From Verrucomicrobiaceae bacterium (GTDB lineage: Bacteria > Verrucomicrobiota > Verrucomicrobiia > Verrucomicrobiales > Verrucomicrobiaceae), in the NCBI GenBank assembly GCA_947458455.1, contig CANGYJ010000007.1, positions 186,001-250,000 of the forward strand: 64,000 nt of DNA, given 5' to 3'. A program made the position numbers and the translations under genes. Below the pieces are notes generated by a model, which did no database searches, had not been told where the DNA came from, and worked only from the letters and a program-made list of their open reading frames with translations. This document shows positions 19,380 through 54,815 of this stretch, in pieces; the first letter of the stretch is position 1; every line of letters begins with the position of its first letter.

Positions 19380-19529
19380 CCCCTCACCTAACCTCTCCCC
19401 GCGTCCACCCCAACATGCTTTCGAATACTCAAAGCGGGGAGAGGAACCTGAAAGCGTACTCCCTCTCCCCGCGAAGAGTTTCCTCAAACACCTCGGACAA
19501 ACTGCGGGGAGAGGGCTGAGTTGAGGGGA
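19380..19529. repeat. CCCCTCACC double-hairpin repeat, copy 1
   Basis: About 150 bases bounded by CCCCTCACCTAACCTCTCCC and GGAGAGGGCTGAGTTGAGGGG, with an internal pair GGGGAGAGGAACCTGAAAGC...ACTCCCTCTCCCC. Outer and inner arms form two adjacent hairpins. It lies in the 315-base space between the PLD and ABC genes, where I see no coding frame or other signal. Four more copies occur in the window. Confidence 0.85.
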
Positions 19530-45302: not shown

Positions 45303-45475
45303 CCCCCCTCACCCCAACCCTCTCCCCCGGCGTAAACTTGAACTGCGTTGGTGAGTCGTTGGCGGGGAGAGGGAGTGCTCTTTTCGGTCCCTCTCCCCGC
45401 GATCAGTATGCGGCGACTTCACCGCGTGATGCGGGGCTAGCGAAGCGCCGCGAAGCGAAAGGTTGGGTGAGGGGA
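45303..45475. repeat. CCCCTCACC double-hairpin repeat, copy 2
   Basis: Bounded by CCCCTCACCCCAACCCTCTC and GGTTGGGTGAGGGG, with internal GGGGAGAGGGAGTGC and CCCTCTCCCCGCG pairs. About 170 bases in the gap between the nuclease and DUF1501 genes. No gene seen inside. Confidence 0.85.
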
Positions 45476-50611: not shown

Positions 50612-50616
50612 CCTTG

Positions 50617-50772
50617 CCCCCTCACCTAACCTCTCCCCCCGACTCATACCGATCTGATTGTCGTTGGCTTTTCACGGGGGAGAGGAACCTGAAAGCGCAC
50701 TCCCTCTCCCCGCGAGAAACTTGCGATGCCATCTCGGATTTCATTGCGGGGAGAGGGCTGGGGTGAGGGGCC
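50617..50772. repeat. CCCCTCACC double-hairpin repeat, copy 3
   Basis: Starts CCCCTCACCTAACCTCTCCC and ends GAGGGCTGGGGTGAGGGG; internal GGGGGAGAGGAACCTGAAAG and ACTCCCTCTCCCCGCG. Begins 5 bases after dtd stops and lies between dtd and the CBS gene. Resembles copy 1 most closely. Confidence 0.85.
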
Positions 50773-50869
50773 GATCATGCCATCCCGCAACATCCAGCCA
50801 TGCATGCCCAAGCCACGCGGAGCAGGAAGAGTGTGCCTCGGCAAGGTTGAGCCACCACCCAACCCAACC

Positions 50870-53952: not shown

Positions 53953-53958
53953 TGCATG

Positions 53959-54148
53959 GGCCCCTCACCCCAGCCCTCTCCCCCGGAAGTACCCAAGAGC
54001 TCATTCACGCGCCTCGCGGGGGAGAGGGAGTGTGCTTTTTAAATGCCTATAGCGTGGAGATGGACCAGGAGCGTCCTCCCTCTCCCCGGCAAAGGGTCTC
54101 GCTTGCTTCTCGATCATGTTCTGGGGAGAGGGCTGGGGTGAGGTGGGG
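53959..54148. repeat. CCCCTCACC double-hairpin repeat, copy 4
   Basis: Longest copy: CCCCTCACCCCAGCCCTCTC at the left, GGGGAGAGGGCTGGGGTGAG at the right, with internal GGGGGAGAGGGAGTGTGC and CCTCCCTCTCCCCGGC pairs. Starts 7 bases after the synthase stop and ends 14 bases before the DUF559 pseudogene. Confidence 0.85.
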
Positions 54149-54161
54149 CACTGACGATCAC

Positions 54162-54518
54162 TCACCGCGTGGCCTCCCAAATGACGTTCAGCACGGTGTC
54201 GGTATCGCGAAGCATCTCATGATTGGTGAATCAAAGCGTTCGAATGCCCTTTTGACGTAGAAAAGCTTCACGAATGGCGTCCTTGCGATGGCCTCTCGCT
54301 TCGTTGTGCTGACCTCCATCCAGTTCGATGCAGAGGTTCAGCTCCGCGCAGAAGAAATCGAGCACGTAAGGCTCCACGGGATGCTGACGTCGAAACTTTC
54401 GACCGCGGACACGACGGCCTCGCAGGATGCTCCAGAGATACGATTCGGCATCGGTGGCCTCCTGGCGGAGTTTTCTCGCGAAGGCAATGAGTCCGAGTTT
54501 TTCGTCATGGACTGACAT
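54162..54518 (-). pseudogene. DUF559 endonuclease-fold gene broken by one stop codon
   Basis: Reading from ATG 54518 (MSVHDEKLGLIAFARKLRQE) gives the DUF559 pattern: ATDAESYLWSILRGRRVRGRKFRRQHPVEPYVLDFFCAELNLCIELDGGQH, a PDDEXK/Vsr-like nuclease core with the D-x-F and E-L-D-G-G-Q-H acids. At 54231-54233 the frame has TGA right after GIRTL. The same frame continues beyond with FTNHEMLRDTDTVLNVIWEATR and a normal TGA at 54162-54164, which matches the missing C-terminus. A CGA (Arg) to TGA change explains it. The track shows only the 5' part (107 residues from 54554). It lies between two CCCCTCACC repeats. The truncated protein keeps the visible core acids but lacks the last helix, so activity is doubtful. 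Confidence 0.88.
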
Positions 54519-54587
54519 GCGTAAATGATCGCGGGTAGGGCTTTGGGGCGTCAAGCAGCATTCTTGGTCGGACGAAACACTTCAAAT

Positions 54588-54738
54588 GCCCCTCACCTAA
54601 CCTCTCCCCGCAACGACGCATAGAAGCTATCGAATACCTTCAGCGGGGAGAGGGATCTGAGAGCGTACTCCCTCTCCCCGGCGCTGAGCTTGGCAGATTT
54701 CTCGGTGCTGTTCCGGGGTGAGGGCCGGGGTGAGGAGC
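54588..54738. repeat. CCCCTCACC double-hairpin repeat, copy 5
   Basis: GCCCCTCACCTAACCTCTCC at the left, CCGGGGTGAGGAG at the right; internal GCGGGGAGAGGGATCTGAGA and GTACTCCCTCTCCCCGGC. Between the DUF559 pseudogene and the alcohol dehydrogenase gene; the rest of that 297-base gap shows nothing coding. Confidence 0.85.
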
Positions 54739-54815
54739 GATGATGGCTTTAGGCTGACAAAGTCTCGTTGCCTCACTGCACCTTCGATGCTCCATGCTGG
54801 CGACTTACCCCATCC

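Follow-up and report, generated by a model that had tools for sequence, protein, structure and literature searches.

The stretch of DNA analysed here (hereafter the window), 64,000 nucleotides long with a GC content of 61%, lies on contig C7 of a 5.35 Mb genome assembled in 28 contigs (G000) and contains five double-hairpin repeats, two of which bracket a gene for a DUF559 nuclease, the only small DUF559 gene in the whole genome. The question raised by this locus is whether the nuclease merely lies among the repeats or is the enzyme that moves them. The reading favored here, at a probability of roughly 0.7, is that repeats and gene together form a cassette that is a small mobile element, that its own DUF559 nuclease moves hairpin-ended DNA, and that the solo repeats are gene-less offspring. 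The features concerned are the following:

53953..54758, strand not assigned: whole inserted cassette, ~806 bp, consisting of the left repeat, the DUF559 gene, the right repeat and short non-repeat tails
53961..54145, + strand: left double-hairpin repeat, CCCCTCACCCCAGCCCTCTCCCC..GGGGAGAGGGAG..CTCCCTCTCCCC..GGGGAGAGGGCTGGGGTGAGG
54162..54518, - strand: DUF559 nuclease gene, a frame of 118 codons that a premature TGA interrupts at 54231-54233; extent read from the sequence
54589..54737, + strand: right double-hairpin repeat, CCCCTCACCTAACCTCTCCCCGC..GCGGGGAGAGGGATCTGAGAGCGTACTCCCTCTCCCCGG..GGGGTGAGGGCCGGGGTGAGG
50618..50770, + strand: solo double-hairpin repeat; inserted segment ~50612-50785, with an empty site in G195, G191 and G120
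45305..45474, + strand: solo double-hairpin repeat; absent in G195 and G120, with unrelated DNA at that place in G191
19380..19528, + strand: solo double-hairpin repeat, matching the consensus; absent in G195

The original prediction placed two double-hairpin repeats around the DUF559 gene at spacings of 14 and 70 bases, and both the arrangement and the spacings hold for a gene that runs from the ATG at 54518 to the TGA at 54162. It also proposed looking for strain-specific insertion of the whole cassette, and for this purpose the orthologs of the gene upstream of the cassette were taken from 48 genomes of the genus. Clean empty sites were found in two relatives: the genes that flank the cassette are joined directly in the sister genome G195 (locus L169; 94.5% DNA identity to the window over the upstream gene and 87% over the downstream gene) and in the more distant G120 (L171), with exactly positions 53953-54758 of the window missing and, in G195, GCGTGA abutting AAGTTCG at the junction. 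Because both the sister and the more distant relative are empty, the simplest reading of the aligned sequences is that the cassette was inserted in the lineage of the window. The three solo repeats, all absent from one or more of these relatives, are insertions too, and a unit that is precisely present or absent between close relatives meets the definition of a mobile genetic element. Mobility is demonstrated by these empty sites; the causal role of DUF559, for which there are no biochemical or genetic data, is inferred from association. Comparison with the empty sites revealed no target-site duplication at the cassette and 50618 sites, although these sites are few and the references diverged; a few target bases were replaced at the 50618 site, and no clear cut site for the element was found. 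At locus L119, a solo hairpin located 3' of a DUF559 insert has a directly duplicated stretch of ~15 bp, TCTCGTGCCAACGAG, on its two sides, which, unlike the sites in the window, possibly represents a target duplication.

The repeats belong to a family of ~150 bp elements with the layout CCCCTCACCTAACCTCTCCCCGC-loop-GCGGGGAGAGGGACCTGAAAGCGYACTCCCTCTCCCCGG-loop-CCGGGGAGAGGGCTGGGGTGAGGGG, as defined from copies extracted from part of the genome, and the elements terminate in paired hairpins rich in GC, CCCTCACC..CCCTCTCCC loop GGGAGAGGG ... CCCTCTCCC loop GGGAGAGGG..GGTGAGGG. The complete double hairpin constitutes a genuine repeat family; the hairpin pattern search returned no matches with the reversed-pattern control. 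A chance origin of the 9-mer CCCCTCACC was also weighed: with one mismatch allowed, the bare 9-mer occurs 23 times in the window versus 17.6 expected, which is no clear enrichment, and only the full double-hairpin structure is enriched. In 35 hairpins of the window genome, two positions just inside the conserved stem are paired in 32 and 31 cases, alternating among G-C, C-G and T-A, compared with 22.7 and 18.1 expected with shuffled partners (0 of 5000 shuffles were as good). The stem of ~12 bp is therefore maintained by compensatory change; at the next two stem positions of the same 35 hairpins, no such change was detected.

Genomes that carry the gene are also richer in repeats. The 149-bp consensus of the family yields 43 BLAST matches in the window genome versus two in G195, three in G191 and none in G120; all three of these genomes lack a small freestanding DUF559 gene. 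Across the genus, genomes with a freestanding DUF559 gene contain 2, 4, 14, 15, 17, 34 and 38 hairpins, versus a median of ~0.5 and a maximum of 12 in those without (Mann-Whitney, 39 genomes, p = 1e-4, or 3e-4 without the window's own genome; no correction for phylogeny was applied). Repeats are present in three members of the genus in which no small DUF559 gene was detected, namely G129 (12), G109 (10) and G077 (9), and draft genomes or past loss may explain these cases. The DUF559 cassette on the G134 contig (L005) differs from those of the other members of the genus, possibly as a result of binning contamination.

The sole gene of the cassette belongs to PF04480 (111 bits, E 1e-31, with '1 TGA' within the match), not to PF01797. 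In hmmsearch, the domain is also similar to the solved structure 3hrl, an endonuclease-like protein from N. gonorrhoeae (E 8e-32), and to 3r3p, I-Bth0305I, which is listed as a mobile intron protein (E 9e-5). The proposed assignment to the Vsr/PD-(D/E)XK-type nucleases is thereby established, the superfamily requirement of a profile match plus a solved relative being met. Among the relatives, YcjD has been classified close to Vsr within the PD-(D/E)XK superfamily (PMC1189080); another DUF559 gene, which occurs in the context of a cyanobacterial intein, has been attributed to the EDxHD homing family (PMC9403480). The dN/dS values of DUF559 range from 0.03 to 0.23 in both clades of the family considered below; the gene is under purifying selection, and the nuclease is therefore kept functional in general. 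The copy in the window itself is not intact: its frame on the minus strand is broken by the in-frame TGA after 95 codons, and the C-terminal 22 codons, with the conserved RFxN region, are lost unless this codon is read through. Because of the premature TGA, this copy is probably dead and probably represents a disabled master copy, the activity of which cannot be assumed.

Beyond the genus, FREESTANDING DUF559 genes of plasmids and chromosomes were inspected together with the DNA on either side, and other phyla were sampled from plasmids. The freestanding genes in this sample come from Deinococcus, Azospirillum, Sinorhizobium, Shinella, Sphingomonadales, Photobacterium, Neisseria, E. coli and cyanobacteria, and most of them adjoin GC-rich hairpins, often as inverted copies at both flanks, with a sequence typical of the lineage (e.g., GCCCCCTAGCCCCCCAATTCTGGGGGG..CCCCCAGAATTGGGGGATTTAGGGGGC in Pseudanabaena). 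A strict test for perfect-stem hairpins (22 of 29 genes on either side, 9 of 29 on both) was too blunt, and the association was instead scored, independently of repeat sequence, by local alignment of the left flank with the reverse complement of the right flank. In this test, 13 of the 29 freestanding genes exceed the 99% control level (p = 5e-6), as do 8 of 15 when one gene per genus is counted, whereas some genes (L163, L010 and L013) show no such match between their flanks. The flanking repeats are multicopy within their own replicons (7, 8 and 16-34 places). In three Deinococcus plasmids, the cassette occupies a different position within the hpa gene cluster each time, and in Sphingomonas it is located inside the pnt operon. 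On cyanobacterial plasmids (L142, L146, L149 and L162), DUF559 interrupts or adjoins genes for defence methylases, a DUF1156 methylase or the BREX methylase PglX, and in L162 it is in frame within PglX.

E. coli YcjD and the 3hrl protein belong to the same family as the window DUF559, and CCCTCTCCC-type hairpins, degenerate in K-12 (L165, 2541-2910), occur between the 3' end of ycjD and fabI. These hairpins seem to resemble the E. coli Box C repeats, and the DUF559-associated hairpins may be linked to Box C and to the rhizobial RIME repeats. YcjD and 3hrl have no assigned function, and for them, unlike the cassette, no mobile element has been described, and the ycjD locus was dropped as an empty-site test given that it varies between ycjD and eefRABCD as alternative alleles and offers no clean empty site (PMC12817139).

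In a tree of DUF559, the freestanding clade, which includes the window gene and whose members have their own start codon (in the window, with a complete hairpin repeat on each side), is separated with support of 100/99 from a clade of different architecture. Members of the latter clade were collected in a scan of GTDB species genomes that relied solely on DUF559 protein motifs and yielded 80 loci from bacteria of many phyla and one archaeal metagenome-assembled genome (MAG); the motifs were built on a set of five sequences and are biased to this clade, and binning errors are possible in single cases among the MAG sources. CCCTCTCCC/GGGAGAGGG with at most one mismatch is present on both flanks within 200 bp in 70 of the 80 loci, compared with 7 of 1813 controls placed elsewhere within these loci, and hairpin stems of at least 8 bp occur in 57 of the 80 left flanks versus 0.5% of shuffles. 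Together with the repeat-agnostic test, this result bears out the prediction that DUF559 genes elsewhere have hairpin flanks: the association of DUF559 with repeats is general. In the motif-found loci, the host frame, the left hairpin, a conserved YRGGFDFAG peptide, DUF559, the right hairpin and the resumed host frame constitute one ORF, so that the interrupted host and its insert remain open for up to ~1400 codons. All 79 scanned hosts are subunits of type I restriction-modification (RM) systems by domain counts (~45 HsdR and ~34 HsdM), with inserts at a handful of recurring places per host, and well-supported branches force at least 3-4 switches between hsdR and hsdM. Database HsdR and HsdM proteins annotated with DUF559 would, these loci suggest, be interrupted genes, and together with the PglX case they raise the question of how defence proteins can harbor a nuclease gene and not be destroyed by it.

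Bacterial genes often have hairpins near their ends, and the repeats could conceivably be ordinary regulatory or terminator-like hairpins, with DUF559 genes merely favoring repeat-rich intergenic space. This can hardly be entertained: the cassette and the solos are precise insertions, the hairpins and the nuclease of the RM clade lie inside coding frames rather than between genes, and the motif is rare in the position-matched controls.

Far closer to the arrangement in the window are the RAYT (TnpA-REP)/REPIN systems, a likeness already drawn in the original prediction, which stands for layout and life cycle and fails for the enzyme. In common with the cassette, these systems combine a nuclease gene beside its own palindromes, a paired-hairpin unit and many gene-less copies, and dispersed, multicopy paired inverted hairpins with covarying stems are indeed present here; the RAYT enzyme, however, is an unrelated Y1 (HUH) transposase, whereas that of the cassette is DUF559 (PD-(D/E)XK/Vsr/EDxHD) (PMC3116915, PMC3733652). 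Unlike REP elements, the DUF559 repeats are ~150-bp double hairpins with CCCTCACC ends, and versions in frame within RM genes exist. By analogy, the DUF559 element would work like RAYT/REP while failing the defining requirement of a Y1 gene flanked by repeats. The hairpins could, nevertheless, owe their movement to a different enzyme, either a Y1/RAYT-type transposase or that of an insertion sequence, with DUF559 a passenger caught between two copies; palindromes are known to be spread by RAYT/REP systems (PMC3116915), and the window genome contains 12 Y1_Tnp matches. Yet none of the 11 Y1 stretches examined has a repeat within ~1 kb, the only small DUF559 gene of the genome has repeats on both sides, and RAYT as the mover is not supported. 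Moreover, the association recurs in many phyla with lineage-specific repeats, a constancy unexpected of a passenger, and in the RM clade the gene is located between both hairpins of one element. A separate mover accordingly appears quite improbable.

A less remote but still unlikely possibility is that DUF559 is a homing-endonuclease-type gene that cuts empty alleles at fixed sites, with the hairpins being only scaffolds for recombination or folding, or remnants. The nuclease domain is homologous to that of the EDxHD (Vsr-like) homing endonuclease I-Bth0305I, with which the DUF559 element also shares the spread of a selfish ORF and insertion inside genes; the few sites within hsdR and hsdM that are used repeatedly and the EDxHD assignment of DUF559 in an intein context (PMC9403480) point in the same direction. 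The element differs from I-Bth0305I in consisting of a stand-alone domain of ~110-120 aa with hairpin ends, in having gene-less offspring and in occupying unrelated intergenic sites; no intron or intein motifs were noticed in the elements read, by eye only. Homing via flanking homology does not explain freestanding cassettes and solos at unrelated intergenic sites, and the recurring host positions could stem from selection for host loops that tolerate in-frame inserts. Pure homing fits the hsdR/hsdM sites and the kinship with I-Bth0305I, not the intergenic sites; judged from sequence, the element appears to share the nuclease domain of these endonucleases without their setting.

Two other types of elements are comparable in part. 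Classical MITEs are short, inverted-repeat, non-autonomous copies of autonomous DDE insertion sequences; the cassette has a double-hairpin layout, lacks a DDE transposase and does not meet the expectation of target-site duplication at the two sites compared above. The palindromic elements of Rickettsia lie in frame within protein genes and may in this respect resemble the in-frame DUF559 inserts; they are not known to have a linked nuclease gene.

Because the cassette landed as one insertion and members of the family are found next to or within related hairpins across many bacteria, DUF559 probably drives the copying of a widespread type of bacterial repeat DNA, the mover of which was previously unknown to us. 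In the mechanism envisaged, hairpins would form in single-stranded or extruded DNA, and DUF559 would recognise and cut at the paired hairpins, an inference for which there are no binding or cleavage data. The element would then be copied or joined into a new break, here without target duplication and by a route that is likewise inferred, and solo double hairpins would be copies that lost the gene and are mobilised in trans. One of the clades has the nuclease enclosed by the paired hairpins of one element, which continues the reading frame of an hsdR or hsdM gene. The original proposal that DUF559 mobilises the hairpins, with the solos non-autonomous, thus gains support from the insertions, the general association and the excess of repeats in gene-bearing genomes, whereas neither the cutting by DUF559 nor the hairpins as its substrate has been subjected to a biochemical or genetic test.

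The wider reading, which we favor only slightly over its negation, is that DUF559 proteins mobilise a large class of bacterial double-hairpin repeats not linked before, which comprises palindromes of the CCCTCTCCC/GGGAGAGGG type from many phyla as well as cyanobacterial repeats of the CCCCCTAAATCCCCC type, and that these form a new class of mobile elements in which the repeat sequence is specific to the nuclease lineage and one clade resides in frame in restriction genes. No earlier description of a link between DUF559 and repeats was found in the open-access literature, subscription literature being outside the search. Bacterial genomes commonly contain palindromic repeats rich in GC, and few besides RAYT/REP have a known mover, so a link to a widespread family of small single-domain nucleases that includes E. 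coli ycjD and the protein of the 3hrl structure would make the origin of such repeats directly testable.

Additional gene-less hairpins, at times in tandem arrays, occur in frame in the same hsdR and hsdM genes at L004, L006, L063, L114, L125, L126, L131, L134 and L138. A GIY-YIG nuclease domain is also present in two interrupted type I RM frames (in the L062-L141 set), which suggests that hairpin-ended inserts of this type may also serve other small nucleases.
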